Assembly: GCF_014023125.1 (NCBI RefSeq)
Contig: NZ_CP048914.1
Location: forward strand, 1,082,698 to 1,146,697
DNA: 64,000 nt
Source: Candidatus Xianfuyuplasma coldseepsis
GTDB taxonomy: Bacteria; Bacillota_I; Bacilli_A; Izemoplasmatales; Izemoplasmataceae
Direction of reading: 5' to 3'
Positions 10,166-28,828 of the stretch are shown here, one piece after another. The notes beneath the pieces are model-generated. The model was not told the DNA's origin. It saw only the letters and a program-made list of their open reading frames with translations, and ran no database searches. Numbering within the stretch: position 1 is the first letter of the stretch; every line of letters starts with the position of its first letter. Both the position numbers and the translations under genes were made by a program.

Positions 10166-10201
10166 GATATTTGACATTACGAAAATAATGGAGTGGATAA
10201 C

Positions 10202-11170
10202 ATGAAAAAATTACGATATATTGGACTTGTATTACTGTTGATCTTAGGACTCAGTGCGTGCAATGATCCGGAACAAGAGGAAACCATCCGTCAAGCCATT
10301 GCGGCACTAGACGCAGCACGAGAACGGATTGCTGAGTTGGAAACACGCAATGCCGAATTGGTAACCCAAGTGGAAGGCTTGATTGAAACGATAGAGAACG
10401 ACACGTGTGCCGAGGATTATTCCGAAGCATTAGCCAGTTTACGTGATAAAACAAACGAACTCTCGACATTACAAGGTATTGTCGCCCTTAAGGATTTTGA
10501 GATTACATCCAAAAATGCGGAGTTAGAAGCCATTAATGCATTGTATGATCAAGTATCGGCATCGTACGTAACGTTGGCCGAAACCTATAATGAATTGAAT
10601 GATGACTATACCTTGTTATTATTCCAGTATGTGCAACTAGGGCATGAATACGAAGATATACTACCACCGACATTTATCCACATAGATGGAATGGGCAATG
10701 AAACGGAACTTCCCTTCTATATTCTATTTGAATATGAAGGAGTCGATACCGTTGATTTTCAAATCGCCTATTTATCAAATGATTCATCTCCTGCGAATGC
10801 CCACTATTTACAAACAGCTTATGTTCAAATCAATAAAACAGACGGTTCCCTTGCAACCATATCCTTTGATGAGGATTTAGAGGGTCATACTCCAGGTAAC
10901 TGGGCGGATTACGATCCGATCCCAGATGGTGCAACATACAGTCAAATTGAAGCGGAATTTATACCGTGGTTGATTGGTAGAACAAGTGCGGATTTAGATG
11001 GTATCTCGGTCTTTACAAATAGTAACTATCACGGTATAGAAAACACCGTAGCCATTAACGACCAAACACTAATTGATACCTTTGCTGGTAGTAGTGTATC
11101 CACAAATAATATGATTCGCGTGATGAAAGAACTGTTGGTTTATTACGAAACTCAGTACACACCAGAATAA
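10202..11170 (+). CDS. Lipoprotein with an N-terminal coiled coil
   Basis: A 322-residue lipoprotein. I placed the start at ATG 10202, with GGAG eight bases upstream. The signal peptide ends in a lipobox LGLSAC with the acylated Cys at residue 20. Residues about 25-145 are strongly heptad-patterned (AIAALDAARERIAELETRNAE), predicting a long coiled coil. Residues about 150-322 form a globular domain with no family I recognise; it holds several acidic and aromatic residues (GNWADYDPIPDGATY). The coiled coil may hold the globular domain away from the membrane. It is a single gene, ended by a strong terminator. Confidence 0.75.
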   Translation: MKKLRYIGLVLLLILGLSACNDPEQEETIRQAIAALDAARERIAELETRNAELVTQVEGLIETIENDTCAEDYSEALASLRDKTNELSTLQGIVALKDFEITSKNAELEAINALYDQVSASYVTLAETYNELNDDYTLLLFQYVQLGHEYEDILPPTFIHIDGMGNETELPFYILFEYEGVDTVDFQIAYLSNDSSPANAHYLQTAYVQINKTDGSLATISFDEDLEGHTPGNWADYDPIPDGATYSQIEAEFIPWLIGRTSADLDGISVFTNSNYHGIENTVAINDQTLIDTFAGSSVSTNNMIRVMKELLVYYETQYTPE

Positions 11171-11193
11171 AAAACACCTCGAGGTGTTTTTTT
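11169..11193 (+). terminator. Intrinsic terminator
   Basis: AAAACACC-TCGA-GGTGTTTT with a run of seven T, just after the stop at 11170. Confidence 0.9.
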
Positions 11194-11217
11194 ATTTATA
11201 ATGTTCTTTAAACAATG

Positions 11218-11226
11218 TGCTATAAT
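11218..11226 (+). promoter_or_regulatory. Extended -10 promoter for the InlB/PhnD-like gene
   Basis: TGCTATAAT: perfect TATAAT at 11221-11226 with TG one base upstream, 34 bases before the start codon. No good -35 box is visible. Confidence 0.5.
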
Positions 11227-11260
11227 ATAATAAGAAATACAATATTATAAGGGGGATAAT

Positions 11261-12910
11261 ATGAAACGAATTATGCTAGTAATTGTATTCGGAGTACTCA
11301 CGTTATTAGTCGCATGTGAAACCATTACTCCATCAGTTACTGAAACAGTTACCATCACCTATGAAACAAACGGTGGTACCTTAGGAAGCGATGCTACTTT
11401 GGAAGTAGACAAAGGGACTGCAATTAGTGAACCAACCGTTACCAAAGAAGGACATACTTTACTGGGATGGTACAGTGATTCGACATTTAATGTCGCATAT
11501 GATTTTGCGCAAGGGGTTCAAGGAAATATTACCATCTATGCCAAATGGCAACCGCTTGAACTGGTTGTTACGTATTATACGGATGCAGAGTATGACACGA
11601 TTATTACGTCGTACGGAGAGTCCTTTCCAACCACAGATGATCCTGTCGTCGAAGGATACCACTTTGATGGCTGGTACAGCGATCAAGAATTAACCACACC
11701 ATTTGAATTTACATCTGCAGTTGTCACGGACAACACAACATTGTATGGTAAGTTTACCATTGAAGAATATACCCTAACAATTATTAACATGGGCAATATT
11801 GTCAGTGAGACTACGTATACATATGGAGAACTTGTCGATATTCCCACAGATTTCACGATGGAAGGTTATATATTTAATGGTGTCTATGAGGAAGAACAAT
11901 TTATCAACCAAGTCATCTCGAATTTTGCCATGCCAGCGGATAATGTAACACTATACATTGAAATGGAAGAATTTAGTCAAGTTCTTACAATATATTTAGT
12001 ACCATTTCGTCCAGGAGAGGAACTTCTTGACATTTCTGAAGACTTAAAAACACTCATGTTGGCAGCTCTTGAGGATGCTGGTTCGTCCTATACTGATATT
12101 GAGTTCTATGTAGGGTCTACCTACGAAACCGTAGGTGAAGCATTATTAGTAGGAATTGCTGATGTCGCCTATTTACCTGCCACAACATATGTTATGTACC
12201 ATGATGTTGAATCCAGTCCGATTGAACCATTGGTTGCATTGACACGTATTGGATTGAATAAAGACTATGACGACGCGAATCTGTGGAATGATGGCATGCC
12301 GACGACGTCGGACTCTCAAGTTCAGGTTCCATATTACCGATCTCTAATTATTGCCGGACCAAGTGCTGCAGGACAAGCAGTTGCTGCCAAAGTCAATAGC
12401 GGTGCACCACTTGTTTGGGACGATGTCAAAGACTTAAACTGGTGTGTACGTAGTGTTACCTCAAGCAGTGGATATGTCTATCCCAATATGTGGCTCAATA
12501 CGAAATTTGGTAAAACCTATGATGATATAACCGGTTACGTTACAACAACTGCCGGATATGGAAACAGTATGAGTAGTTTAGCAGCCGAAATCTGTGACGT
12601 TGCAACATTCTACGCCGATGCACGTCGCGATTATGCAGACGAATGGGAAACCGATTATGGTAAAACCGATATTTGGACAGAAACCAACGTGATTGGTGTC
12701 AGTGCCCCAATTATGAATGATGTAATTGCCTATAATGCAGACAATCTTGATACCACAATTATCGAGATATTGGAAGAGTTCTTTGTGACTCTAGGGGATG
12801 ACCCCATGTATTGGCAATTATCTGGATTATTCTATAACGATGGATTTATACTTATTGATGATACGGACTATGATCCAGTCCGAGAAGCATTGGAGTTCTA
12901 TGGATATTAA
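11261..12910 (+). CDS. InlB-repeat lipoprotein fused to a PhnD-like solute-binding domain
   Basis: A 549-residue lipoprotein: lipobox LLVAC (Cys at about 19), then three InlB-type repeats at residues about 27-95, 96-165 and 166-235, with GHTLLGWYSD and GYHFDGWYSD signatures in the first two. From about 240 to the end it looks like a phosphonate/phosphate-type periplasmic-binding domain (PhnD superfamily): LTIYLVPFRPGEEL opening, GIADVAYLPATTYVM, and the long SGAPLVWDDVKDLNWCVRSVTSSSGYVYP segment, where such proteins bind an anion at a helix N-terminus. No transporter genes lie next to it. The ligand could be phosphonate, phosphite or another anion; the fold assignment is fair, the ligand a guess. 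Confidence 0.72.
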   Translation: MKRIMLVIVFGVLTLLVACETITPSVTETVTITYETNGGTLGSDATLEVDKGTAISEPTVTKEGHTLLGWYSDSTFNVAYDFAQGVQGNITIYAKWQPLELVVTYYTDAEYDTIITSYGESFPTTDDPVVEGYHFDGWYSDQELTTPFEFTSAVVTDNTTLYGKFTIEEYTLTIINMGNIVSETTYTYGELVDIPTDFTMEGYIFNGVYEEEQFINQVISNFAMPADNVTLYIEMEEFSQVLTIYLVPFRPGEELLDISEDLKTLMLAALEDAGSSYTDIEFYVGSTYETVGEALLVGIADVAYLPATTYVMYHDVESSPIEPLVALTRIGLNKDYDDANLWNDGMPTTSDSQVQVPYYRSLIIAGPSAAGQAVAAKVNSGAPLVWDDVKDLNWCVRSVTSSSGYVYPNMWLNTKFGKTYDDITGYVTTTAGYGNSMSSLAAEICDVATFYADARRDYADEWETDYGKTDIWTETNVIGVSAPIMNDVIAYNADNLDTTIIEILEEFFVTLGDDPMYWQLSGLFYNDGFILIDDTDYDPVREALEFYGY

Positions 12911-12935
12911 AAAAGACCAGCAATGGTCTTTTTTT
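12909..12935. terminator. Bidirectional terminator between convergent lipoprotein genes
   Basis: AAAAAGACCA-GCAA-TGGTCTTTTT, T-rich in both directions. The stop codon of the minus-strand gene (12934-12936) overlaps its edge. Confidence 0.85.
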
Positions 12936-13440
12936 ATCGGTATGAGAGGTCTAAATGGTCTTCTTCCATATAGGTTGCATAAATACCTAAATCACTCGCG
13001 GGCATAATATCTGGGACTTGCTCGGTCCAACTCGCAAACTTCAATTCATTTCGTTCAGGTGGGATAGGATACGTGACAAAACTCAAATCCTGCCCATATT
13101 CGACAACGTAGAATTTTAAGAGATTATTCCGATCATCATAGAAGCGAATAAAGTATTTATTAACGTTCCACTTTGCATACACCGTCACATTGTCTTCCAT
13201 GCGATCAAAGAAGTTAAACCGTGTTGTATAATCTTCATCAACATACCAACGATCAAAAGTATACCCAATGCGATAGGGATCTTTTGGTATCTCAGGTAAT
13301 TCCCCTTCTTCGACTTCAATGGCAGCGACTTCTGAACCGCCTTTACTATCAAATGTTACCGTGTAAAAGGTCCCGCTTGGAACACAAGAAGCGAGAAATA
13401 GTACCATGCTAGAAACAATAATGAGCATGAATTTTTTCAT
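12934..13440 (-). CDS. Small InlB-repeat lipoprotein
   Basis: A 168-residue lipoprotein with lipobox LFLASC (Cys at 19). Residues about 26-93 are one clear InlB B-repeat (YTVTFDSKGGSEVAA, GYTFDRWYVDEDYTT, MEDNVTVYAKW); residues about 94-160 form a second, more degenerate unit (KFASWTEQV). AAGGAGGGTCC precedes the ATG at 13440. It lies 19 bases after the WG-repeat lipoprotein gene and is very likely in the same transcript. With no enzymatic domain it is probably a surface structural or binding protein. The small size compared with other InlB proteins in the window is notable. Confidence 0.75.
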   Translation of the reverse strand: MKKFMLIIVSSMVLFLASCVPSGTFYTVTFDSKGGSEVAAIEVEEGELPEIPKDPYRIGYTFDRWYVDEDYTTRFNFFDRMEDNVTVYAKWNVNKYFIRFYDDRNNLLKFYVVEYGQDLSFVTYPIPPERNELKFASWTEQVPDIMPASDLGIYATYMEEDHLDLSYR

Positions 13441-13459
13441 AAGGACCCTCCTTACTGCG

Positions 13460-14884
13460 TTAGGATATCATTAAACCTACTTCGATATTGTCGTACTCCA
13501 AAGGAACCACAATATCGCCTTCTGGATTAATGAATCCCCACAACCCATCTTGAGCGACAGGTATTAAACCAAATATGGTAATTGTATATGCGTTGTCATA
13601 GGTAATGTCATTGATATAATCGCCATTGCGATTGACAAAACGATAGGTAATGTCTTCACCATCGGTAAGTTGAACACGATATATGCCATAATCTAAATTG
13701 GAACCAGGAATCACTATTCCATCGCCATCATAGAGGATGCTTTCATTCATATCCATAAAACCTTGAGTATCATTTTCTTCATCGATGAAGAATGCTAAAT
13801 CATCGTAAATATAGTTGATTTGCAGATCGCTGCTTAGGACTTGATTGCCTTGATTGTCATAGACATAATAGGTATTATTATTGAAAATTACATAATATTC
13901 CCCGCGACTATCAGCACGGTAGATTTCTTGTCCGAAAAATTCAAACACAGTCGTACCATCGTTTTTAATTAGCGAGACCAAACTGCCATTGAAGTAATGG
14001 GCATATCCAGCTTCACTAAAGTTTAATGGTAAAGCGTAATTAGGTTCCAGCACTTGATTCCCATAGAAATCCAAATATCCAAATTTCAGCCCTTCTTGGA
14101 ATAACACGAGGTTTCCATGTGTGGCAAAGGATAGAAACTCATATTGAAACGGAATCACAATGTTTCCAGCGGTGTCAATCGCACCATATAGATACTGATC
14201 ACCAATCGTTTTAGAAGCGATGGCAATATCACCGTTGTATGCGGTAATGTATTGATACTCCATTGGAATAACTAAATTTCCGGAAGTATCATAGACACCA
14301 AACGACCCATCTTTTGTAGCAACAATACGCTCACTACTAGGGTGTCCCATATTTACGTGATCAAAGGTTATGATCGTACTTCCATCGCGATCGATGAATC
14401 CGAGTTTCCCATCACTATTGGTGACACGGGCAACTCCATATTCACGGAAGTAAGCTTGGCCACTCATGTACTGGGGGCTGATGAGAACAATACCATCTAA
14501 ATTGGCAAACCCGATGAGGTTGTTTGCTGTATAGGAGAAGATGGTAGAAATGGATGTTTCTTCGGTCGCAGAAGGACAATCAAAGGTACTGTATCCATTG
14601 AGTGATGCATCATCAATTCGATTCACTAGTTCACCTTGGTAATCCAATATATCAATATGCTCGTCTTGGGCAAGATAATAAGTCCCACAGCGACGAATGT
14701 CGTCGTATTGCAAAGACACAATTGTTTCACCTTGCTGGTTGATTAAACCGATTTGATCATCTTTCTCAACAATGATTAGTAAATCCGATATATCAAGGGT
14801 ATTATCCACTTGTTGTTTATTCGGTTTACAAGCCACTAGTGTGACTACTAATAAACCGATGATTAGGTATCGTAAAGCTTTCAT
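13460..14884 (-). CDS. WG-repeat lipoprotein
   Basis: A 474-residue lipoprotein with lipobox VTLVAC (Cys at 19). The rest is made of WG/KWG-type repeats of about 40-50 residues, each beginning with a short G(L/F)(I/V)(N/D)..G..(V/I)(I/S)..QYD-like unit: QIGLINQQGETIVSLQYDDI, LGFIDRDGSTIITFDHVN, SFGVYDTSGNLVIPMEYQYI, LWGFINPEGDIVVPLEYDNI and others; about nine can be made out. WG repeats form beta-propeller-like extracellular or periplasmic domains of unknown role. It heads a two-gene operon with a small InlB lipoprotein. A TGATATAAT extended -10 lies about 40 bases upstream. Confidence 0.85.
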   Translation of the reverse strand: MKALRYLIIGLLVVTLVACKPNKQQVDNTLDISDLLIIVEKDDQIGLINQQGETIVSLQYDDIRRCGTYYLAQDEHIDILDYQGELVNRIDDASLNGYSTFDCPSATEETSISTIFSYTANNLIGFANLDGIVLISPQYMSGQAYFREYGVARVTNSDGKLGFIDRDGSTIITFDHVNMGHPSSERIVATKDGSFGVYDTSGNLVIPMEYQYITAYNGDIAIASKTIGDQYLYGAIDTAGNIVIPFQYEFLSFATHGNLVLFQEGLKFGYLDFYGNQVLEPNYALPLNFSEAGYAHYFNGSLVSLIKNDGTTVFEFFGQEIYRADSRGEYYVIFNNNTYYVYDNQGNQVLSSDLQINYIYDDLAFFIDEENDTQGFMDMNESILYDGDGIVIPGSNLDYGIYRVQLTDGEDITYRFVNRNGDYINDITYDNAYTITIFGLIPVAQDGLWGFINPEGDIVVPLEYDNIEVGLMIS

Positions 14885-15022: not shown

Positions 15023-15051
15023 TTGTAAGCGTTTTTATGGTATTCTATTTA
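15023..15051 (+). promoter_or_regulatory. Promoter of the ornithine/arginine operon with a cre-like site
   Basis: TTGTAA (15023-15028), a 17-base spacer and TATTTA (15046-15051). The sequence TGTAAGCGTTTTTA at 15024-15037 covers the -35 box and differs from the CcpA cre consensus at one fixed position (T for C before the last A). A flanking inverted repeat, ATATCGC (14977-14983) and GCGATAT (15006-15012), lies just upstream. Confidence 0.5.
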
Positions 15052-15088: not shown

Positions 15089-16135
15089 ATGAAAAACATC
15101 CATGTAGTAATCTGGGGATTTGGCGCCATGGGTAAAGGAATGGCGGACATGTTATTAACGAAAAAAGGTGTTGAAATTACCGGTGTATGTGATCGTAATC
15201 CTGCGATTATAAATACCAGTATCTTTTCCCTATTAGAAGAACCCAAACGTAACCATCCGGATGTCATCATCACCGATGATATTACGACCTTATTAGATAA
15301 AGAGATCTGCGATATCGTATTACTTGCAACCGATAGTTTTACCAAAAATGCATTTCCGAAAATGAAACAAGTATTAGAAGCGGGAATCAACTGCATCTCC
15401 ACAGCCGAAGAAATGGCGTATCCAAAAGCACAGGAACCAGAACTAGCGAAGGAGTTGGATGCGATTGCCAAAGCCCATAACGTAACATTGTTGGGTACCG
15501 GAATCAATCCGGGATTCATTATGGATTTACTCGTTATTGCATTAAGTGGTACAATGAAACGTGTAGACCACATTGAAGCCAACCGTGTTAATAGCCTCAG
15601 TCCGTTCGGTCCGGCGGTTATGGAAGAACAAGGAGTGGGTATTACACTGGAAGAATTTCATCAGGGTGTTGACAGCAAAACCCTTGCAGGACATGTTGGA
15701 TTTGCCGAAAGCATTCAAATGATAGCAGATGCACTTGGAGTACCGCTAACTCGCTTCGAACAACAAATGAAACCAATCGTTACAACCGTAGACCGTAAGA
15801 GTCCTTATGGTGAAGCGAAAAAAGGACATGTAGCCGGTGTTAATATGACGGGACAAGGATATGTCGGTAATGACGTCTTTATCGATATGAAACACCCACA
15901 GCAAATCGAACCCGAAATGGAAGGAACCCATACCGGTGATTACATTACTATAAAGGGTGTACCGGAAATCAACATGGGAATCCAACCGGAAATTGACGGG
16001 GGTATTGGTACCATTGCTATGTGTGTCAATATGATACCCCACGTTCTAAACAGTAAACCAGGATTGAAAACAATGATTGATCTCCCGGTTCCCCGCGCTA
16101 TATTAGGAGATATGAGAGATCTTATTGATTCATAA
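15089..16135 (+). CDS. ord: 2,4-diaminopentanoate dehydrogenase
   Basis: The 348-residue protein is the NAD(P)-dependent enzyme that oxidatively deaminates 2,4-diaminopentanoate to 2-amino-4-oxopentanoate in ornithine oxidation. The Rossmann entry VIWGFGAMGKGMADMLL is at residues about 6-22, with dihydrodipicolinate-reductase-like body and conserved TGINPGFIMDLLVIAL near residue 140. The identity is strongly backed by ortA, ortB, oraS and oraE downstream. AAAGGAG lies 9 bases before the ATG at 15089. It is the first gene of a twelve-gene operon, separated by 26 bases from an ion-channel gene. NAD(P)H formed here is the reducing output of the pathway. Confidence 0.92.
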   Translation: MKNIHVVIWGFGAMGKGMADMLLTKKGVEITGVCDRNPAIINTSIFSLLEEPKRNHPDVIITDDITTLLDKEICDIVLLATDSFTKNAFPKMKQVLEAGINCISTAEEMAYPKAQEPELAKELDAIAKAHNVTLLGTGINPGFIMDLLVIALSGTMKRVDHIEANRVNSLSPFGPAVMEEQGVGITLEEFHQGVDSKTLAGHVGFAESIQMIADALGVPLTRFEQQMKPIVTTVDRKSPYGEAKKGHVAGVNMTGQGYVGNDVFIDMKHPQQIEPEMEGTHTGDYITIKGVPEINMGIQPEIDGGIGTIAMCVNMIPHVLNSKPGLKTMIDLPVPRAILGDMRDLIDS

Positions 16136-16161: not shown

Positions 16162-17781
16162 ATGGCTGAAACAAAAAAAACCACAACAAGTAGTACCAAA
16201 AAATCAACAACGACAAAGAAACCAAGTACACAAAAAAAATCAACATCCACAAAAAAATCGACAACAAGTACAAAAAAACCGAGTACGAGAAAGAAATCAA
16301 CTTCTTCAAGTACATCAAAAACAACGCGTACAAAAAAGCCAAAAGCTGAAACAGGTCGCATTAAAGACAAGTCCGAATTAACAACCTTAGAGACCTTAGA
16401 AGCTCAAGTTGAAGGTAAGGTAATACGTGAACGACAACCACTTGGGAAACTATTTTATCTGATCTTTAGTATCGTATTCTATGCGGTTGCCTATTTTTAT
16501 ATCAACACAACCGTATATGCGGGTAGTGATTGGATTGAAACGGCAATCTTTGCCTTTGCTGCATTGTTTATTGCCTTTGTATTGATGCTATTTAATGTGC
16601 ATATGTTGGTCTTTTACTTCTTTGTATTACCATTTAGACGTCTCTTTAAACAGGCGAAAATGGAAGCCCATAAAGAAATCTTCTTTAGTGTTGGAAAAAA
16701 CAAAGTCCAAACAACATTCAACAAATACAAATCCATCTTTACATTGGTCTTGTATTTCTTATTTGGTGGACTCCTAGTTGTTGCCTCAGTACTATCAAGC
16801 ATTCAAGATGGAGACGCCATTCTTCAAATTGTCTACAGTGCCTTTATCATCTTGATTATTTACCTAGTTGTGATTAACTCGTGGCAATTCTTATTCAATA
16901 TCATCCCTAGTATCTTAGAAAAAAGCATTGATGCCAAAAACGGCTATGTATTAACACTAAGCGCCGCTGTTATGGTGATCTATATCGTCTTTATCATCTT
17001 TGACATCACCTATTTAGCAGAGATTATGATCTTTGTTCTAATCATTGGATTTATTGCCTTATTAGGAGTGAATCTCAATATGATTGTCGGCGAAATAAAT
17101 ATCTTCCAAAACCTTCGGGGACGTAAAAGCAAAGCCGTTACCCGCGTCGTCTTTATCGTCTTCTTCGGATTCCATATTTATGTTGTATTATATGCTAGTG
17201 TTGTTGCCTATAGTATTTATAACTGGCAACCCGATGCTTATAATTTTACCGAAGTCCATTACGACATTACCGTCGATGATGAAATCTATTCCAGTGGAAC
17301 CCTTGTCGAACAAGTCTATGATATGAATGGCGATCCTGTCAATCAAGTCTATGATATGAATGGCGATCCCCTAACCATGGGAATCGATGAGAATGGGAAT
17401 ACCCTCACCATCTATGATGAACAAGGAAACATGTTATGGGATTTCTATGATTCATCCGGTGGTAATCTGTTCAACTTTACCGATACCAATGGTAACTTCA
17501 TCAATAACCCGTTCTTCTATGAAGGGCGTCTAGCGATAATCGATACCAAAGTTGAACGCCTTCATACCTATGGCGACTTCCTTTATTGGACTGTTATTAG
17601 TGTCTCAACCATCGGTTATGGCGACATCGCTCCGTCCACCGAATATCCGATTGCTCAGGCTTGGGGAGGATTCCTAGGGATCTACGGGTTAACATTCTTT
17701 GCCTTAAGTATTTCATTTGTATCAAACATCGCCATGGAAGGAATCAATTCTGTACGAGAGGAATCACGAAAACATGATTGA
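16162..17781 (+). CDS. K+-channel-like protein with Lys/Ser/Thr tail and turret repeats
   Basis: A 539-residue membrane protein. Residues 1-62 are almost only Lys, Ser, Thr and Pro, a low-complexity basic tail. Hydrophobic helices lie at about 97-118, 125-157, 192-214, 220-247, 262-306 (two), 326-352 and 500-523. The K+ selectivity filter STIGYGDIAP is at 482-491, between the last two, so the C-terminal part is a two-helix pore domain of the Ion_trans_2 type. The loop before the pore helix is enlarged to about 120 residues and holds six DxxG(D/N/G) units starting at 387, 398, 409, 419, 430 and 441. Its UGA stop overlaps the ortA start by eight bases, so it is translationally coupled to the catabolic genes. 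No known RCK or cyclic-nucleotide domain is present. Potassium selectivity is from the motif; the physiological role is unknown. Confidence 0.82.
   Translation: MAETKKTTTSSTKKSTTTKKPSTQKKSTSTKKSTTSTKKPSTRKKSTSSSTSKTTRTKKPKAETGRIKDKSELTTLETLEAQVEGKVIRERQPLGKLFYLIFSIVFYAVAYFYINTTVYAGSDWIETAIFAFAALFIAFVLMLFNVHMLVFYFFVLPFRRLFKQAKMEAHKEIFFSVGKNKVQTTFNKYKSIFTLVLYFLFGGLLVVASVLSSIQDGDAILQIVYSAFIILIIYLVVINSWQFLFNIIPSILEKSIDAKNGYVLTLSAAVMVIYIVFIIFDITYLAEIMIFVLIIGFIALLGVNLNMIVGEINIFQNLRGRKSKAVTRVVFIVFFGFHIYVVLYASVVAYSIYNWQPDAYNFTEVHYDITVDDEIYSSGTLVEQVYDMNGDPVNQVYDMNGDPLTMGIDENGNTLTIYDEQGNMLWDFYDSSGGNLFNFTDTNGNFINNPFFYEGRLAIIDTKVERLHTYGDFLYWTVISVSTIGYGDIAPSTEYPIAQAWGGFLGIYGLTFFALSISFVSNIAMEGINSVREESRKHD
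17311..17369 (+). repeat. 26 bp tandem-type duplication inside the channel gene
   Basis: Two identical 26-base copies (17311-17336 and 17344-17369) are spaced by 33 bases, that is 11 codons, and encode the first two DMNGDP units of the turret. Identity at DNA level points to a recent duplication. Confidence 0.85.
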
Positions 17782-18076
17782 TAAAGGAACCTATGTACGC
17801 ATTAGGCAGACCGTGCTACAACCACAAGAACGCTCAACCCATCTTCCCGAAGAAACCACCAAAGTCCCCTTTAAGATTTGGGTAAAAGGATATCTTCAAG
17901 AAGATGCGGATTTATTTGATATTGTTACCATTAAAACGCCCTTAGGACATACGTTCACAGGTCGTTTAAAAGAAGCAAATCCACCATATCGTCATACGTA
18001 TGGTGATTTTGTTCCTGAGATATTAAAAGTTCGTGAAATCATCCATACGGATCTGTGGGGTGATTCTCATGAATAA
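17774..18076 (+). CDS. ortA: 2-amino-4-oxopentanoate thiolase, alpha subunit
   Basis: A 100-residue protein matching OrtA in size and in position before ortB. OrtA and OrtB together cleave 2-amino-4-oxopentanoate with CoA to acetyl-CoA and D-alanine, the last step of anaerobic ornithine oxidation. Visible family features are the N-terminal GTYVRIRQTVLQPQERS and the TPLGHTFTGRLKEANPPYRHTYGDFVPEI block. The ATG at 17774 lies within the end of the channel gene (8-base overlap); a longer frame from 17717 would overlap it much further. The stop overlaps ortB by eight bases, indicating coupled synthesis of the two subunits. Confidence 0.9.
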   Translation: MIDKGTYVRIRQTVLQPQERSTHLPEETTKVPFKIWVKGYLQEDADLFDIVTIKTPLGHTFTGRLKEANPPYRHTYGDFVPEILKVREIIHTDLWGDSHE

Positions 18077-19451
18077 CACCTATGATGAATTAATGAAGCG
18101 TCGCAATGACATTATGAAAGCCAGTGTCGGTATTGATTATAACGACTACGAACAAGAAGGGATTGCCTTTGACTATGAAGCAATGATGCGTGATCAAGGC
18201 TATGACATTGCAACGATTCAAAAAATTCAACAGGAACACATGGTTGGCAACACACCGTTAGTCGAGTTGAAAAACATTACAAAGTATGCTCGTAAATACG
18301 CCAAACCAGGATATGGTGCCCGTATTTTTTTGAAGGATGAAGCCGCCAATTTAAGCGGTAGCTTTAAGGCACGTCGTGCCGCATTAGCGATTCACCAAGC
18401 AAAAAAACTAGGATACAAAGGTGTTATTGCTGCGACAAGTGGAAACTACGGTGCCGCCGTAGCTGCATTGGCAGCCAAAGAAGGACTCCATTGCATCATT
18501 ATCCAAGAAGCGTTTGATTCCAAGAATATGGCTCAACCAGAAATCCTTGAGAAAGCACGAAAATGTGAAGCCTTTGGAGCAGAAGTGATCCAATGCTCCG
18601 TCGGTCCGGAACTCTTTTATATGTTCTTAAAGTTATTGGATGAAACAGGATATTTTAATGCATCACTCTATTCTCCGTATGGCGTTAATGGAATTGAAAC
18701 ATTGGGTGTTGAAATTGCATCTGAAATCAAAGAACAAGTCGGTAAATACCCCGAAGCTGTTGTTGTCACTAATGCTGGTGGTGGAAATCTTACCGGTACC
18801 GCACGAGGCCTTAAAAAGGCCGGCGCAACATCTACTAAAGTAATCGGGGCAAGTGTGAACTTGTACGGTCTACATATGGCCAGTGATTATGATTTTAATC
18901 GAAAATCATTTACCACAGGACACACCGGTTTTGGAATCCCATTTGCAACCTATCCAGATCGTAGCGATGTACCACGTAGTGCTGCTCGCCCGTTGCGTTA
19001 TATGGACCGCTATGTCATGGTTAATCAAGGCACCGTATTCTTTTTAACAGAGGCGTTAGCCCAATTAGAAGGTATGGAACGAGGACCTGCTGGAAACACA
19101 TCCCTAGCAGCTGCATTTTGCCTTGCACAGGAAATGAAAGAGGATGAAATCATTGTGGTTCAAGAAACCGAATATACCGGAGCTGGAAAACACATTCTAC
19201 CACAATTATCATTTGCGAAGAAAAATGGTATTGAGATCCTGTTTGGAGATCCAACTAAAGAAATCCCTGGGACCAATATTATCTTTCCAAAGGATGGTTC
19301 GTTCATTCGTTATCAAGAAATTCGATTAGAAGACTTACATAAAACCTATTTAAAACGTTACAAAGATCAATCATTGAGCGAATTAGAACTGCAATATCTA
19401 GCAGATGAACTACGCTTAGATATCACACAAATACAAACATTACTACAATAG
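18069..19451 (+). CDS. ortB: 2-amino-4-oxopentanoate thiolase, beta subunit (PLP)
   Basis: A 460-residue PLP-dependent protein of the threonine-synthase/tryptophan-synthase-beta fold. The PLP lysine is in LSGSFKARRA (Lys100), with TSGNYGAAVAALA and NAGGGNLTGTARG as the phosphate- and substrate-binding Gly/Asn loops. With OrtA it makes acetyl-CoA and D-alanine. I placed the start at ATG 18069, overlapping ortA by 8 bases; an upstream ATG at 18033 adds twelve unlikely residues inside ortA. It is followed by oraS after ten bases that contain AGGAGGTG. Confidence 0.92.
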   Translation: MNNTYDELMKRRNDIMKASVGIDYNDYEQEGIAFDYEAMMRDQGYDIATIQKIQQEHMVGNTPLVELKNITKYARKYAKPGYGARIFLKDEAANLSGSFKARRAALAIHQAKKLGYKGVIAATSGNYGAAVAALAAKEGLHCIIIQEAFDSKNMAQPEILEKARKCEAFGAEVIQCSVGPELFYMFLKLLDETGYFNASLYSPYGVNGIETLGVEIASEIKEQVGKYPEAVVVTNAGGGNLTGTARGLKKAGATSTKVIGASVNLYGLHMASDYDFNRKSFTTGHTGFGIPFATYPDRSDVPRSAARPLRYMDRYVMVNQGTVFFLTEALAQLEGMERGPAGNTSLAAAFCLAQEMKEDEIIVVQETEYTGAGKHILPQLSFAKKNGIEILFGDPTKEIPGTNIIFPKDGSFIRYQEIRLEDLHKTYLKRYKDQSLSELELQYLADELRLDITQIQTLLQ

Positions 19452-19461
19452 GAGGTGCAGT

Positions 19462-19827
19462 ATGAAAGAACGTATCGATGACTTTGAGACAAGACGTGAA
19501 CATTTAAAACACATGTCCGATCAAGAACTCAAACAATACTTCTTACAACTCGCAGATAAAATTGTCGATCCCCTACTGGATTTGGCATATAAAAACACGT
19601 CCAAATCGATTGAACGAAGTATCCTACTTCGGATGGGATTCAATAGTTTAGAAGCGAAGACAATCGTTGACATTTTACATGAAAATAACCTGCTACGAAA
19701 AGGTAGTGGTCAATGCGTATATTTAGTATCAAAGAAGTTCAATGTTACTATTAGAAAAGCAGGAGAATTCATTGAAAATAATAAGGGAATTGAGTTCCTT
19801 TTGTCCCATTTTGAGGTGACATCATGA
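19462..19827 (+). CDS. oraS: D-ornithine 4,5-aminomutase, small subunit
   Basis: The 121-residue protein has the length and opening (RIDDFETRREHLKHMSDQELKQYFLQLADKIVDPLLDLAY) of OraS, the small subunit that forms the B12/PLP enzyme D-ornithine 4,5-aminomutase with OraE and converts D-ornithine to 2,4-diaminopentanoate. It includes the RSILLRMGFNSLEAKTIV segment typical of the family. AGGAGGTG lies six bases before the ATG. Its UGA stop overlaps the oraE start in an ATGA junction, matching equal production of the two subunits. Confidence 0.93.
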   Translation: MKERIDDFETRREHLKHMSDQELKQYFLQLADKIVDPLLDLAYKNTSKSIERSILLRMGFNSLEAKTIVDILHENNLLRKGSGQCVYLVSKKFNVTIRKAGEFIENNKGIEFLLSHFEVTS

Positions 19828-22031
19828 ACTTAAAACCGAATGAAAAGCTAAATATTCATGAAATCTTGAAGGATTTACGGCACTATCAACCACAAAAACG
19901 TGGATGGGTATGGCGCGACCAAACACCACAACAAATTCGAGACTTTACTTATGTCCAAGCAAGCCCATCGCTTCAAAATTATGTACCTTTACCCAGTGCG
20001 AGACATCTCGGAAATATCGATCCACAACCATCCGAAGTTATCACAACAGAAATAGCATCTGGACGATTTGAAGATGACATTCGTCGGATGCGTATGGCTG
20101 CCTATCATGGTGCTGATCACATTATGGTAATCCGTACTGCAGGGCAATCACACTTCGATGGGTTACTCGAAGGTACACCACAAGGTATTGGTGGTATTCC
20201 AATAACAAGAAAACAAGTTAGAGCCCAGCGCAGAGCATTAGATATCATCGAGGAGGAAGTCGGAAGACCGATAAACTATCATAGTTATGTGTCTGGTGTA
20301 GCAGGACCTGAAATCGCTTTGTTATTTGCTGAAGAGGGTGTAAATGGTGCTCATCAAGACCCTCAATATAACATATTATACCGCAATATCAACATGGTAC
20401 GTAGTTTTGTTGATGCTGCAGAGAGCAAACAGATTATGGCTTACGCCTCGATGGCTCAAATCGATGGGGCGCATAACGCAAATGCAACTGCAAGAGATGC
20501 TTGGAAAGTCATGCCTGAATTATTAGTGCAGCATATCATTAATTCTAAATTCAGTGAAAAAGTTGGAATTAAAAAAGAGAATATTTGTCTCTCGACCGTA
20601 CCTCCGGCAGCATCCCCAACACCGGATTTAAAATTGAATCTACCATATGCCGTTGCACTTAGAGAATTTTTAGGGGATTACAAGATGCGAGCACAGATGA
20701 ATACCAAATATATGGATTCATCGACACGTGAAGCAACCGTAACTCATGTTTTGAACTTGTTAATTACTCGATTGACAAGCGCAGATATCCAATCTACAAT
20801 CACCCCGGATGAAGGACGTAATGTTCCGTGGCATATTTACAACATCGAAGCACTCGATACCGCCAAACAAGCCCTCATTGGAATGGATGATTTACTAAGT
20901 ATGGTCAATCTTAAAAATGACGGTTACTTACAAGATAAAAAACGTGAGATTCAAGAGCGCGCCATCCTGATGATGGAAGAGATTATTGAGATGGGAGGAT
21001 ACTTCAATGCTGTAGAAGCTGGTATGTTTGTTGATAGTGGTGAATATCCCCAACGCAATGGTGATGGAATCTCTCGTGAAATCAATGGTGGGGTAGGTAA
21101 CGGTACTGTTATTGAACGGGATCAAGACTATATGGCACCTGTGACTGCACATTATGGATACAATAATATTGCGCAGTATGATAAAAATGCAATTGATGAT
21201 CCCAGTTCTTTAATTGACGGATGCACCTTGGAACATCCAGAAATGATCCAATTTATTGATGAACTAGATGAAACAGACAATGTCTATCTACGCCTTGAGA
21301 AGAGTGAAAAATACCGTACTGGAGGTCTTTTACGACCTGAAGTACAGTGGTTGGGTGATGGTACAGTTACCGTGGATTTATTCTTTGCAACCGATGAACG
21401 AACAGCCGAGGCTGCTGCACTTGTAACAGGTGAAAAGATGAACTTAACCGATGTTGAGGTAATCCATAAAGAAGTTCTGCATCCTTCAGAAGGTACCCGA
21501 ATCCAGATTAAGGGAACATTTAATGTTGATATTAAAATAGACGAACTCGAATTACCGGAAGTCGTTGAAGCACATTCTGAAGAGGATATTATACAGTATA
21601 TCAAAGATCATCCTATCAACGTTGTTGCTGGTACAGCTGGTAATGATGAACACAGTGTGGGTATTCGAGAAGTACTCGATATTAAACATGGTGGCATCGA
21701 AAAATACGGGATGAAGTACACTTATTTAGGAACTAGTGTACCAATCGAAAAATTTGTCGACGCTGCGATTGAAACACGTTCTCAAGTCATTATGATGTCC
21801 ACCATTATATCGCATGATGATGTCCATTATAAAAATATGAAAAAACTGCATAACTACGCTGTTGAAAAGGGTGTACGTGATCAGTTAATCTTAATCGCAG
21901 GAGGGACTCAGGTAACTCCTGAAATTGCACGAAACAGTCATATGGACCAAGGATTTGGTCGTGGCACAAAAGGTATTCATATAGCAAGTTTTATCATTAA
22001 TAAACACAAGGATATGATGAATGAAGATTGA
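19824..22031 (+). CDS. oraE: D-ornithine 4,5-aminomutase, large subunit (B12 and PLP)
   Basis: A 735-residue protein. The N-terminal part is a TIM-barrel PLP domain (DDIRRMRMAAYHGADHIMVIRTAGQSHFDG near residue 80). The C-terminal Rossmann domain carries the base-off cobalamin motif DEHSVG at 608-613 (DxHxxG, His610) and Lys621, which is 11 residues further on, exactly as His618 and Lys629 are spaced in the characterised clostridial enzyme. It needs adenosylcobalamin, PLP and OraS, and acts in the cytosol on D-ornithine. It overlaps mutL by eleven bases. The full set of catalytic features suggests an active enzyme. Confidence 0.95.
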   Translation: MNLKPNEKLNIHEILKDLRHYQPQKRGWVWRDQTPQQIRDFTYVQASPSLQNYVPLPSARHLGNIDPQPSEVITTEIASGRFEDDIRRMRMAAYHGADHIMVIRTAGQSHFDGLLEGTPQGIGGIPITRKQVRAQRRALDIIEEEVGRPINYHSYVSGVAGPEIALLFAEEGVNGAHQDPQYNILYRNINMVRSFVDAAESKQIMAYASMAQIDGAHNANATARDAWKVMPELLVQHIINSKFSEKVGIKKENICLSTVPPAASPTPDLKLNLPYAVALREFLGDYKMRAQMNTKYMDSSTREATVTHVLNLLITRLTSADIQSTITPDEGRNVPWHIYNIEALDTAKQALIGMDDLLSMVNLKNDGYLQDKKREIQERAILMMEEIIEMGGYFNAVEAGMFVDSGEYPQRNGDGISREINGGVGNGTVIERDQDYMAPVTAHYGYNNIAQYDKNAIDDPSSLIDGCTLEHPEMIQFIDELDETDNVYLRLEKSEKYRTGGLLRPEVQWLGDGTVTVDLFFATDERTAEAAALVTGEKMNLTDVEVIHKEVLHPSEGTRIQIKGTFNVDIKIDELELPEVVEAHSEEDIIQYIKDHPINVVAGTAGNDEHSVGIREVLDIKHGGIEKYGMKYTYLGTSVPIEKFVDAAIETRSQVIMMSTIISHDDVHYKNMKKLHNYAVEKGVRDQLILIAGGTQVTPEIARNSHMDQGFGRGTKGIHIASFIINKHKDMMNED

Positions 22032-23382
22032 TGTTTTAGTTGCTGAAATCGGTTCAACAACTACCATCGTGAATGCCTTTAATATCCACCAATCAAACCC
22101 TAGCTTTTTAGGACGTGGTGTTGCCAACACCACAGTCGCCTCAGATGTTACGATCGGTCTTAATTTAGCCATCAAAAACCTACAAAATAACCTTCACACA
22201 GACAGTATCGAATACAGTGAAATGTTTGCAACAAGTAGTGCTGCTGGAGGACTAAAAGTAACCGTCCATGGACTGGTTTACGAAATGACGGTTAGAGCCT
22301 CCAAAGAAGCTGCTTTAAACGCAGGAGCAAACATTCATTTAGTAACAGCTGGAAAGGTTAAACATCGTGATTTAAAGCGGATTAAAAACATTCAACCAAA
22401 CATCATTATTGTCGCTGGAGGGACCGATTATGGAGAGTATGAAACAGCACTCTATAACATTGAGAAAATCCTCCACTTGAATCTTGATATTCCAATCATT
22501 TATGCTGGAAATATTGATAATCATCATGACATTAAAGAGTTTTTTGCTAAGCATCATAAACAAGATCTCCTTAAAATTGTCGAAAATGTATATCCACGAG
22601 TTGATTATTTGAATATCTTACCGCTTCGAAAAGTCATTTACCAAACATTTGAAGAAAATATTATTCATGCACCAGGAATGAATCACATCCATGACATGGT
22701 TAATCAAAATATCATGCCTACTCCAGGTAGTGTAATGGAAGCGACAATGATGCTCTATGAACACTTAGGTAATGTCATGACAATCGATGTTGGTGGGGCT
22801 ACCACTGACATCCATTCTGTCGCAGAACCAAGCGATGAATACAAAGAATATCAAGAGGGTGAGCCGCGCTCAAAACGTACTGTTGAAGGTGATTTAGGAG
22901 TATTTATTAATCACAAAAATGTCGTTCGACTCTTTGAAGATAACACATTAAGTATTGCATCCGGACTATCAGAAGATACACTAAATAAACTACTAGAAAA
23001 CTATACATATATCCCCACAACGAAAGATCAAAAGACACTTGTTTACCAACTAACAAAAAAGTGTACTGAACTAGCGCTAGACCGCCATGTTGGTGATTTA
23101 AGACGAGTATTTACAAGCTCGGGTCAAAAGATTATACCAGAAGGAAAAGACCTAACCAAAGTTCAATTTGTTATCTTAACTGGAGGGGCATTGGTAAACT
23201 TAAGTCATACCGAAAAGATCATAGATGAGTATATTCGAACGAATCACCGAAAACTACTCCCAAACAAGAATGTAACGATTCTAAAAGACCATGATTACAT
23301 CATGGCATCGTTAGGAGTACTTTCATTGAAATATCCAGAGAAAAGTGTACGACTACTTAGAAAAACGTTAAGAATTGAGTGA
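22021..23382 (+). CDS. MutL/GlmL-like reactivating ATPase of the aminomutase
   Basis: A 453-residue actin-like ATPase of the MutL (glutamate mutase-associated) family. The N-terminus VLVAEIGSTTTIVNAF and the middle MTIDVGGATTDIHSV are the two phosphate-binding motifs; VILTGGALVNL is the adenosine motif. These proteins accompany B12-dependent mutases and probably reactivate them or load cobalamin; a gene of this type is part of the ornithine cluster in clostridia. The ATG at 22021 lies within the end of oraE. I leave the symbol empty because mutL also names the unrelated mismatch-repair gene. Confidence 0.88.
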   Translation: MKIDVLVAEIGSTTTIVNAFNIHQSNPSFLGRGVANTTVASDVTIGLNLAIKNLQNNLHTDSIEYSEMFATSSAAGGLKVTVHGLVYEMTVRASKEAALNAGANIHLVTAGKVKHRDLKRIKNIQPNIIIVAGGTDYGEYETALYNIEKILHLNLDIPIIYAGNIDNHHDIKEFFAKHHKQDLLKIVENVYPRVDYLNILPLRKVIYQTFEENIIHAPGMNHIHDMVNQNIMPTPGSVMEATMMLYEHLGNVMTIDVGGATTDIHSVAEPSDEYKEYQEGEPRSKRTVEGDLGVFINHKNVVRLFEDNTLSIASGLSEDTLNKLLENYTYIPTTKDQKTLVYQLTKKCTELALDRHVGDLRRVFTSSGQKIIPEGKDLTKVQFVILTGGALVNLSHTEKIIDEYIRTNHRKLLPNKNVTILKDHDYIMASLGVLSLKYPEKSVRLLRKTLRIE

Positions 23383-23387
23383 TATTC

Positions 23388-24446
23388 ATGTATCCAAGTA
23401 TTATCATTGATTTAAAAAAGTTCCGAAAAAATGTACAAGTTTTACGTGATCAATGTCATAAAAGAGATGTAAAAATGATGGCAGTGACCAAGGTTTTTTG
23501 TGCTGACCACAAACTCGTAAAAATTCTTAATGAAGAAAAAGTAGACTATATCGCTGACTCAAGAATTCAAAATTTAAAAGAGATTTCAACTGATATTCCC
23601 AAGGTTTTATTGCGGATTCCAAGTCACGGAGAAATCGAAGATGTGATTCAATATTCAGATATTTCTTTGAACTCTGAGCTATCAACAATTGAGTTATTAA
23701 ACTCAGAATCACATAAATATGGTACAAAACATGGTATTATACTAATGATTGACCTGGGTGATTTAAGAGAAGGTATTTTCGATGAAAATGAGGTATATAA
23801 TGTAGTTAAACGTGTATTAGAACTACCTCATATTGAACTACGGGGTATCGGAACTAACCTCACTTGCTATGGTGGTGTCATACCATCGATTGATAACATG
23901 AATCAGCTTCTTAAATACAAACAAAATATTGAAGAAAAATTCGATATTTCACTCGAAATTGTAAGTGGAGGAAACTCTTCAAGTATCGATATGCTACTAG
24001 AGGATAAGATACCATCAGGAATTAACAACCTTAGATTAGGAGAAAGCCTTGTATTAGGACGAGAAACAGCATATGGAAATTATATTGATGGCACCTACAA
24101 TGATGTATTCTGTCTCGAAGCTGATATCATTGAGCTTAAGGTTAAACCTACCGTTCCGATAGGTCAGATAGGTATGGACGCCTTCGGAAAGGTACCAACA
24201 TTTGAGGATAAAGGTAATCGACTTAGAGCTATCTTAGCGGTAGGTAAACAGGATGTAGATCATCGTGAACTGATACCGTTTGATACTATCAAACCGATAG
24301 GGTCTAGTAGTGATCATATCATTGTTGATGCTACTGAAGGGCATAATATATACGAAGTTGGTGGCATGATGCTATTTCGATTGACCTATAGTTCAATATT
24401 AAGCTTAATGACATCAAAATACGTGACGAGGTACTATGATGAATAG
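23388..24446 (+). CDS. orr: Ornithine racemase
   Basis: A 352-residue PLP enzyme of the alanine racemase-like N-terminal fold. The PLP lysine is in MAVTKVFCAD (Lys35), and the residues IELRGIGTNLTCYGG and SGGNSSSIDMLLEDKIPSGINNLRLGESLVLG match Orr, which converts L-ornithine to D-ornithine, the substrate of OraSE. I placed the start at ATG 23388; an upstream GTG at 23379 overlaps mutL. It overlaps alr by eleven bases. Visibly more AT-rich than arcABC and the ort genes. Confidence 0.88.
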   Translation: MYPSIIIDLKKFRKNVQVLRDQCHKRDVKMMAVTKVFCADHKLVKILNEEKVDYIADSRIQNLKEISTDIPKVLLRIPSHGEIEDVIQYSDISLNSELSTIELLNSESHKYGTKHGIILMIDLGDLREGIFDENEVYNVVKRVLELPHIELRGIGTNLTCYGGVIPSIDNMNQLLKYKQNIEEKFDISLEIVSGGNSSSIDMLLEDKIPSGINNLRLGESLVLGRETAYGNYIDGTYNDVFCLEADIIELKVKPTVPIGQIGMDAFGKVPTFEDKGNRLRAILAVGKQDVDHRELIPFDTIKPIGSSSDHIIVDATEGHNIYEVGGMMLFRLTYSSILSLMTSKYVTRYYDE

Positions 24447-25512
24447 ATATCGTGAAACGTATGCTGAGATTAATTTAAAGCACTTATACCACAACTTAAA
24501 ATCGATCCAAAAAATAGTACATCCAAAAACAGTGATCCCAGTAGTTAAGGCTGATGCGTATGGTCATGGCGCAGTAGAGGTTGTACGGTACTTGATTGAT
24601 AAAGGTATTGACTACTTTGCGGTAAGTCTCTTAGAAGAAGCCCTTGAACTGAGAAGAGTTTACCCTAATATTGAACTACTTTGCATGGGTATTATTGAAA
24701 ACGAAGGCTTACTCATTGCAAGTGAGAATAACATTACTGTTACAATGAGTAATTTCAATCAACTCCAAAATTGTCCAAAATTGTCAAAAACTCTAAAAAT
24801 TCATCTCAAAGTTGACACTGGTATGAATCGACTTGGATTTAAGTCGGATCATGATATTAAAGAAGTAATTGATGAAATTCAAAAAAATGAAAAATTTTTC
24901 CTTGAAGGAATTTTCACTCATTTTAGCACTGCTGATGAAAATATTTCATACTATAAAAAACAGTTGAATAGATTTGATGATATTTTCACGAATTTAAATT
25001 TCAAGTTCAAAATGATTCATGTTTCAAATTCGAGTTCTCAAATTCAATTTGAGAAGGATCTACCATGGACTACCCATACCCGACTCGGAATTAGCTTATA
25101 TGGTTTAACTTATATCGACCATATCAAATTTTTAAAGAACACATTTACCCTAAAAACTAAAATCAGTCAACTAAATAGACTGACCGCTGGTGAGTTTGTT
25201 GGTTATGGTGCAAGTTATGAATCTAGTGGTCAAGAAATTATTGCCGTCTTACCAATCGGATATGCTGATGGGTTTATCCGAAAGAATACGGGTGGTTTTG
25301 TTGAGATAAATCACAAACGTTATCCTATTGTTGGACGGATTTGTATGGACATGACTTTTGTTAAAGTTGACGAGTCTGTACAACTACACGATGAGGTTAT
25401 TTTGTTCGGTGGTTTAATTTCAATTGATGAGGTTGCTGATCGATTGGATACAATTAATTATGAAGTCATTTGTCAGATATCAAAACGTGTACCACGTATA
25501 TATAAAAAATAG
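24436..25512 (+). CDS. alr: Alanine racemase (or broad-specificity amino acid racemase)
   Basis: A 358-residue, full-length fold-type III racemase. VVKADAYGHGAVEVV carries the PLP lysine (Lys38), LKVDTGMNRLGF and THFSTADE follow, and GYGASYESSGQEIIAVLPIGYADGF carries the second catalytic Tyr region; VGRICMDMTFVKVD is the conserved C-terminal block. The family interconverts L- and D-alanine. In this operon it has an obvious job: OrtAB releases D-alanine, which Alr can return to L-alanine for transamination or protein synthesis. Peptidoglycan D-alanine supply is an alternative, and a basic-amino-acid racemase cannot be excluded by eye. A tandem ATG ATG start is at 24436. Confidence 0.88.
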   Translation: MMNRYRETYAEINLKHLYHNLKSIQKIVHPKTVIPVVKADAYGHGAVEVVRYLIDKGIDYFAVSLLEEALELRRVYPNIELLCMGIIENEGLLIASENNITVTMSNFNQLQNCPKLSKTLKIHLKVDTGMNRLGFKSDHDIKEVIDEIQKNEKFFLEGIFTHFSTADENISYYKKQLNRFDDIFTNLNFKFKMIHVSNSSSQIQFEKDLPWTTHTRLGISLYGLTYIDHIKFLKNTFTLKTKISQLNRLTAGEFVGYGASYESSGQEIIAVLPIGYADGFIRKNTGGFVEINHKRYPIVGRICMDMTFVKVDESVQLHDEVILFGGLISIDEVADRLDTINYEVICQISKRVPRIYKK

Positions 25513-25526
25513 AGAGGAAGTGACGT

Positions 25527-26750
25527 ATGAAACTACAAGTATTTTCAGAAATAGGACGTTTAAAAACAGTTCTATTACACAGGCCGGGGAAGGAACTAGA
25601 AAATCTGACTCCTGATTTACTCGAGAAGTTACTGTTTGATGATATTCCGTATTTAAAGGTAGCTCAAGAAGAACACGATGCCTTTGCACAAACATTGCGT
25701 GATAACGGTGTTGAAGTATTGTATATCAAGGATTTGGTTATTGAAGCATTGGATAATCATCCAGAAGTACGCCAGCACTTTATTAATCAATTTATCGAGG
25801 AATCCAATATCCTATCAAATACCGTAAAAAATGGTATTTATAAGTACTTAATTAAAATGGATAACTATGAGTTGGTCTCAACAATGATCGAAGGAATTCG
25901 CACTCATGATATTGAAGTTGATACTAGTTTTTCCATTTTGGATATGTTGGAAAGTGAGTATCCCTTCTATGCCGATCCTCTCCCGAATTTATTGTTCCAA
26001 CGAGATCCTTTTGCAACCATTGGGAACGGGCTTGCTATCAATAACATGATGACCGATGCTCGGACAAGGGAAACCCTCTTTAGCGAGTATATTTTTGCCT
26101 ATCATCCTCGTTTTGAAAATGCTACAATCCCCTGTTATAAGAAGAGAACTACGAGGTGGAAAAGCGAAGGGGGAGATGTCTTAGTTCTAAGTCCATCCAC
26201 CCTGGCTATCGGTATTAGTAAACGAACCGATCCTCGGGCCATTGAATCACTGGCTCGCGAGTTGTTTCATAAAGATGCGTCGTTTACGACAATCTTGGCA
26301 TTTAACATACCGAAATCTCGGGCGTTCATGCACCTTGATACCGTGTTTACCCAAGTCGATCATGGTACGTTTACCATTCACCCCGGGATTATGAAAGAGT
26401 TAACCATTTTTGAAATCACGAAGAACGGGAAGAAAGACATCCGTGTCGAAAAAGTCGTCACAACCTTGGAACATATATTGGAAAAACACTTACAGCGACC
26501 GATAAAACTAATCAATATTGGTGGAAACGATTTGATTACCGCAGGACGCGAACAATGGAATGATGGTGCCAACACACTCGCCATCGCACCGGGTGTTGTT
26601 ATTGTTTATTCACGAAATCACGTAACCAATGAACTTCTTCGTAAAGAAGGGATTAAAGTACTAGAAATTCCATCCAGTGAATTATCACGAGGAAGAGGGG
26701 GACCTCGCTGTATGTCCATGCCCCTCTTCCGTGAAGAAATAAAAGAATAA
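25527..26750 (+). CDS. arcA: Arginine deiminase
   Basis: A 407-residue enzyme that hydrolyses L-arginine to citrulline and ammonia. Conserved segments: [21 protein letters not shown] near the N-terminus, [42 protein letters not shown] with the catalytic His, and [13 protein letters not shown] with the nucleophilic Cys near residue 395. Length matches the family. Starts with ATG 25527 behind GAGAGGAAGTGACGT. It sits 14 bases after alr and ten before arcB, so it is in the same transcript as the ornithine genes. Confidence 0.96.
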
Positions 26751-28779: not shown

Positions 28780-28800
28780 GGCACACCTGACACGTGTGCC
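28780..28800 (+). promoter_or_regulatory. Hairpin in the leader of the giant lipoprotein gene
   Basis: GGCACAC / GTGTGCC (7 bp, extendable by wobble pairs) with a seven-base loop, followed by TTTCATTT, about 12 bases downstream of the predicted start of transcription. It is too poor in T to be a sure terminator and may stabilise the mRNA or attenuate it. Confidence 0.5.
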
Positions 28801-28828
28801 TTTCATTTATAATACTAGGAGTGTGGAC

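Follow-up and report, generated by a model that had tools for sequence, protein, structure and literature searches.

The oxidative degradation of ornithine has been described in clostridia, whose clusters encode ornithine racemase (orr), D-ornithine 4,5-aminomutase (oraS/oraE), 2,4-diaminopentanoate dehydrogenase (ord) and 2-amino-4-oxopentanoate thiolase (ortA/ortB) (PMC3091704, PMC8803604). The same enzymes are encoded in the window analysed here, a stretch of 64,000 nucleotides from Xianfuyuplasma coldseepsis zrk13, but the run of genes in the window additionally comprises alr, the genes of the arginine deiminase pathway and, between ord and ortA, a gene for a channel-like protein, which we call KCH here. 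No clostridial ornithine cluster is known to us to have a channel at this place. The genome of this Izemoplasma consists of one contig of 1,958,905 bases, and zrk13 was the first Izemoplasma to be brought into culture (PMC8397711).

On the side of the channels, the Ion_trans_2 proteins SthK, MthK and GsuK share with KCH a pore of the TM-P-TM type and a GYGD filter. YugO of Bacillus subtilis and Kch of Escherichia coli are likewise bacterial K+ channels; unlike KCH, both possess a TrkA-type cytoplasmic domain, and to our knowledge neither sits in an amino-acid fermentation operon. Both are tied to the membrane potential (PMC11928028). No description of a K+ channel in such a genetic setting was found in the literature searched. 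For most bacterial K+ channels, the everyday function has yet to be established. Since the gene order here names a pathway, and since zrk13 is one of the few Izemoplasma in culture, the question of what such a channel is for becomes testable.

The channel gene within the ornithine and arginine operon

A single run of genes encodes both the oxidative fermentation of ornithine and the arginine deiminase pathway, with KCH inside it (Table 1). The oxidative set (ord, ortA, ortB, oraS, oraE and orr) is complete in the window, and the ornithine carbamoyltransferase and carbamate kinase genes at the end of the run were assigned from their translation and conserved order alone, not from family profiles. 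The initial annotation had described a protein with a TIGYGD motif between ord and ortA, overlapping ortA by eight bases, and this was confirmed. Its further claim that expression of the gene is tied to the pathway was borne out by the 26-bp gap after ord, by the overlap with ortA, by the lack of a promoter-terminator pair in the ord-KCH gap and by a shared element before ord. A ribosome site (AGGGGTGA) is present upstream of the ATG start. That KCH might be a chance open reading frame, or be read in the wrong frame, was ruled out by its Ion_trans_2 match, its conserved homologues and its conserved filter. Chance is also excluded for the frame and the overlap, since 9 of 14 genomes share precisely the same 8-bp overlap with ortA.

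Table 1. Features of the operon, its control element and the parts of KCH, with positions in the window
Feature	Position	Strand	Basis or remark
Control element TGTAAGCGTTTTTATGGTAT	15024-15043	+	65 bp before ord start; 0 mismatches to family element
ord, 2,4-diaminopentanoate dehydrogenase	15089-16135	+	NF040740, 517 bits
KCH, channel gene	16162-17781	+	ATG start, 539 aa; Ion_trans_2 E 2.5e-10
N-terminal Lys/Ser/Thr-rich tail, residues 1-95	16162-16446	+	predicted disordered, cytoplasmic; pLDDT under 50
Six-helix core TM1-TM6, residues 96-318	16447-17115	+	model helices and hydropathy
TM7, outer pore helix, residues 324-353	17131-17220	+	model
Predicted extracellular acidic turret, residues 354-468	17221-17565	+	YDxxGN-like repeats; beta-rich in model, pLDDT 83-88
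Selectivity filter TIGYGD, residues 483-488	17608-17625	+	alignment of 16 sequences
TM8, inner pore helix, residues 496-528	17647-17745	+	model
KCH stop/ortA start overlap ATGATTGA	17774-17781	+	8 bp
ortA, 2-amino-4-oxopentanoate thiolase subunit	17774-18076	+	NF040739, PF22010
ortB, thiolase subunit	18069-19451	+	NF040741, 783 bits; start probable
oraS, D-ornithine 4,5-aminomutase small subunit	19462-19827	+	PF16552
oraE, D-ornithine 4,5-aminomutase large subunit	19824-22031	+	NF040743, 1322 bits
or-4, GlmL/MutL-related protein	22021-23382	+	PF13941; NF040744, 594 bits vs cut-off 600
orr, ornithine racemase	23379-24446	+	NF040742
alr, alanine racemase	24436-25512	+	TIGR00492
arcA, arginine deiminase	25527-26750	+	TIGR01078
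Ornithine carbamoyltransferase	26761-27780	+	read from translation; order kept in relatives
Carbamate kinase	27752-28687	+	read from translation; order kept in relatives

Directly after orr stands a second racemase gene, of the alr type. It is kept in the loci of the family and was not seen in those of families f3, f10 and f11. Its product probably converts D-alanine to L-alanine, since the ornithine pathway yields D-alanine. On both sides, the operon is flanked by large lipoprotein-like and repeat-rich open reading frames (10193-14884 and 28796-33217). A search of 38 loci did not find the upstream neighbour (13460-14884) next to the operon in any of them, so that the surrounding gene order is not generally kept.

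Build of the predicted channel and selection on its parts

The Pfam family Ion_trans_2 (PF07885) matched residues 467-524 of KCH with an E value of 2.5e-10, which exceeds the curated cut-off. The pore could be aligned to that of solved K+ channels both by sequence and by fold. Within it, the filter STIGYGD occupies residues 482-488, and G485, Y486, G487 and D488 are invariant in all 16 sequences. These features are consistent with a K+-selective channel of a lineage-specific build with eight transmembrane helices, in which six helices would be followed by a TM-pore-TM unit with GYGD, and which would work as a tetramer. The charges of the loops fit a predicted cytoplasmic N-terminus and outer turret.

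KCH departs from SthK, MthK and GsuK in several respects, as it has six helices before the pore without a charged S4, neither an RCK nor a cyclic-nucleotide domain, an acidic repeat turret and a location in a catabolic operon. KCH has no Kv-type S4 with regularly spaced Arg/Lys: TM6 (residues 285-303), which stands at the place of S4, contains no K/R at all, the next basic cluster being in the following loop. About 11 residues follow TM8, and Pfam detected no further domain, neither a TrkA_N/RCK domain after the pore, as in MthK, YugO and Kch, nor a cNMP-binding domain, as in SthK. The structure models of KCH are weak (pTM 0.35 and 0.41); the alignment of SthK to such a model began at residue 284 (Z 7.8, rmsd 5.5), and the alignments returned by the structure aligner cover chiefly the pore half. 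Foldseek gave no match for the six-helix core at an E value of 0.001 or better; judged from the models, it is possible that this core has a known fold.

The two remaining parts vary more. The N-terminal tail measures 5-182 aa in the relatives and is nearly absent in three of them (G012, G019 and G039), and this basic tail appears to be dispensable. The turret of KCH contains 21 D/E against 3 K/R. In the long forms (n = 15) it comprises 115-131 aa, with 20-29 D/E against 0-6 K/R, and in G012 it is reduced to 35 aa. A reading of its YD repeats as RHS repeats was rejected, the match being under the cut-off. Comparison of the close pair G029/G040 gave a dN/dS of 0.00 from the pore to the end (no non-synonymous change), 0.10 for TM1-TM7, 0.86 for the turret and 0.59 for the tail, all of them rough figures that derive from short stretches of a single pair. 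Strong purifying selection acts on the pore and the membrane core, and not on the turret and the tail. The amino-acid sequence of the turret is nearly unconstrained, yet it is acidic throughout.

The almost free evolution of turret and tail could mean that KCH no longer works, either as a decayed gene or as a membrane protein that does not conduct. This is barely credible, as the pore and the core are the most constrained parts of the protein, the GYGD motif is invariant and the open frame is intact in 16 of 16 relatives.

Distribution, control and history of the insertion

Relatives of KCH occur in 16 of the 49 genomes of the family, at 47-74% identity. A profile search in 395 genomes of the class confined the full-length relatives to this family, nearly all remaining hits being pore-only. 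The relatives found in the named collection were Izemoplasma-type (Mycoplasmatota) assemblies. Fourteen of the 16 carriers have the gene in the ord-ortA interval and in the same orientation as its two neighbours; for G039, this count takes the channel from the homologue search and not from a reading of the locus. In these in-place carriers, ord is 20-26 bp away, and the channel overlaps ortA in 12 of 14 (by 8 bp in nine, 4 bp in two and 11 bp in one), a gap of 1 or 5 bp being present in the remaining two. The check proposed with the initial annotation, whether homologues also sit next to ord and ortA, therefore came out in its favour, the homologues not being mostly elsewhere. Likewise, its statement that other ornithine clusters have no channel at this place was upheld by all 20 channel-less genomes read (families f1, f3, f10 and f11), where the ord-ortA junction measures 4-227 bp and is free of any channel. 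The genetic link proves stronger than the initial annotation, made from the sequence alone, was able to tell.

In the two other carriers the channel stands alone. G008 has it on another contig, its ord-ortA junction being closed and the aligned start of ortA following after 46 bp, and G027 has a solitary copy, its ord-ortA junction being unassembled. As ortB and oraE seemed absent from G027, we considered that the channel might be kept there without the pathway. This was rejected: the contig with arcA stops within or-4, so that the operon is present and merely cut by the assembly. The pathway is present in every carrier, and four g5 genomes without the pathway are also without the channel. Sister genera as well as G035 and G047 run the pathway without a channel, which is thus dispensable to the pathway as such. 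The link between channel and operon is clade-specific.

A control element precedes ord by 62-65 bp in each of the 14 in-place carriers, and likewise in G008 and G035; G004 also has it before ord, though channel-less. In 13 of the 14 channel-less loci of the family, the element (TGNAANNGTTTTTATGRTAT) stands directly before ortA, in the ord-ortA gap (L052-L057, L059-L062 and L064-L066), and in the channel-less genera it is often preceded by a hairpin and T-run that would terminate ord. It is absent at both stand-alone channels (G008 and G027). We discarded the idea of a genome-wide site, as the zrk13 genome contains one perfect copy only and the count with two mismatches equals that of the control. 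The element is probably the promoter/operator of the whole operon. Because the carriers have it before ord rather than before ortA, KCH falls inside the co-controlled unit, and its being under the same control as the arginine/ornithine operon, a genetic tie, is well supported. KCH would then come from the same message as the arginine/ornithine enzymes, and translation of ortA would be coupled to that of KCH.

In a tree built from ord, ortB and oraE, all carriers plus G035 and G047 fell into one clade, with a bootstrap of 100 against the channel-less genera and the outgroups. The tree of KCH itself is poorly resolved and partly discordant, G027 grouping with G013 and G008 with G019/G039; some exchange or a rate effect is possibly behind this discordance. 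The 113-bp ord-ortA gap of G035 (L063) reads KADELTTLEVLEASGKGKPIKKKEKW in one frame, where its relative G048 has KDSELTTLEVLEASVEGKPIKEKEKF; the score was 87, the shuffle maximum being 33. This gap is a remnant of the channel left by deletion in place, with pieces of the tail still readable. A remnant in G047 was, unlike that in G035, unconvincing (score 34, with shuffles reaching 31). A horizontally mobile gene was rejected as well, since KCH has no plasmid match and the carriers form a single clade in the operon tree. The one clade of carriers and the remnant in G035 argue for a single gain of KCH, followed by vertical descent with few losses or moves; the gene would have entered the ord-ortA junction a single time, in an ancestor shared by the members of an Izemoplasmataceae clade.

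Proposed physiological role and comparison with a CBASS effector

Five genera in one branch of marine bacteria that lack a wall have retained the channel in the operon and under its control, so that transmembrane ion flow and the arginine/ornithine energy pathway are probably linked. The reading that we prefer, though tentatively, is that KCH, acquired by a single ancestral insertion, is a K+ channel made together with the enzymes, which balances charge or membrane potential during arginine fermentation. KCH would conduct K+, possibly some NH4+, and would presumably be made only while arginine or ornithine is burnt. A net import of Arg+ would bring in positive charge, as ornithine is consumed and not returned, and each arginine fermented yields as many as three ammonium ions. 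With a K+ leak at that time, the membrane potential would stay close to the equilibrium potential of K+, drawing Arg+ inward, and K+ could exit as ammonium accumulates, so that charge and cell volume would stay within bounds in a wall-less cell. The acidic turret would collect cations at the outer mouth. K+ could be restored by a TrkH/KtrB-type transporter, and a TrkH-family K+ uptake gene is present. This role in the balance of Arg+ and NH4+ charges, reasoned from the chemistry of the pathway, is plausible. One DcuC/ArcD-family carrier is also present, and the charge argument would be weaker if arginine entered by exchange. The proposal suggests that cells which ferment a cation, and wall-less ones especially, may depend on an electrical route by which charge can return.

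KCH could also be a general K+ channel, serving the control of K+, volume and potential, which came to lie in the operon by accident long ago and was then fixed there by the overlap. That 14 of the 16 carriers have no Ion_trans_2 gene other than KCH, that the gene of G008 stands alone without the element and that of G027 is also a lone copy, and that the same pathway runs in channel-less sister genera would all agree with this view, which we regard as possible if somewhat doubtful. Yet its place and coupling have been held across five genera, down to a channel identity of about 47-55%, whereas the 13460-14884 neighbour was found at none of the 38 loci, and a pathway-specific element would be an odd choice for housekeeping expression.

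Another question is which ion matters for the charge balance. K+ filters let NH4+ through to some extent, and if ammonium exited electrically for each arginine cation entering, up to three being formed per arginine, the net charge would balance. That NH4+ is the relevant ion is nevertheless quite improbable, since the filter is of the canonical K+ type, with no sign of a preference for NH4+, and ammonia is able to leave as NH3.

A protein from another family of the same class bears on the origin of KCH. In G146, the gene at L129:9334-10971 (minus strand), which encodes the same protein as L100:1492-3129, specifies a fusion of 545 aa between a Cap15 cyclic-dinucleotide receptor (PF18153, E 3.8e-24) and a K+ channel. 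It adjoins genes for a CD-NTase, an E1-E2 protein and a JAB protein, which together form a type II CBASS operon, and this CBASS effector resembles a K+ channel gated by a ligand. Aligned to a KCH profile without the pore, the pre-pore part of the fusion gave an hhalign E value of 2.4e-6. In the hhalign control script its score was 40.7, the shuffles reaching a mean of 16.1 (sd 3.1) and a maximum of 26.1. Outside the pore, residues 214-476 of the fusion show 26% identity with the turret-less channel of G012 (E 2.2e-7). Three ordinary K+ channels from class-mates (L133, L142 and L143; 294-298 aa) gave shuffle-level scores with the KCH pre-pore profile. The likeness extends beyond the pore alone, and the pre-pore core of KCH is a specific relative of the channel part of the Cap15 fusion, a match that involves one sequence on the defence side. 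It connects a metabolic channel with one half of an antiphage effector.

These scores, and the failure of the ordinary channels to match, would be expected if KCH were a re-used defence channel, its core coming from a Cap15-type CBASS effector or sharing a parent with it, its ligand domain lost, and its present function being that of a metabolite-gated channel or an emergency leak. We consider such a descent very unlikely: unlike the fusion, KCH has no Cap15 receptor or other ligand domain (no Pfam Cap15 domain and no PADLOC hit), its neighbours are catabolic and not those of a defence system, and there is only that one defence-side sequence. Returning to charge balance, a wider version of our preferred reading holds that a catabolic operon carries, on one transcript, its own channel as a charge return, with K+/NH4+ going out against Arg+ coming in, which would couple the membrane potential to the fermentation of a cationic amino acid, and that one channel core is common to metabolism and CBASS-type defence; in this full form it is unlikely. 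No viral relatives of the Cap15 fusion were found. About 3 kb from the CBASS genes, L129:1293-4298 (minus strand) encodes a protein of 1001 aa with a SIR2/ThsA-like N-terminus (PADLOC ThsA, E 7e-28).
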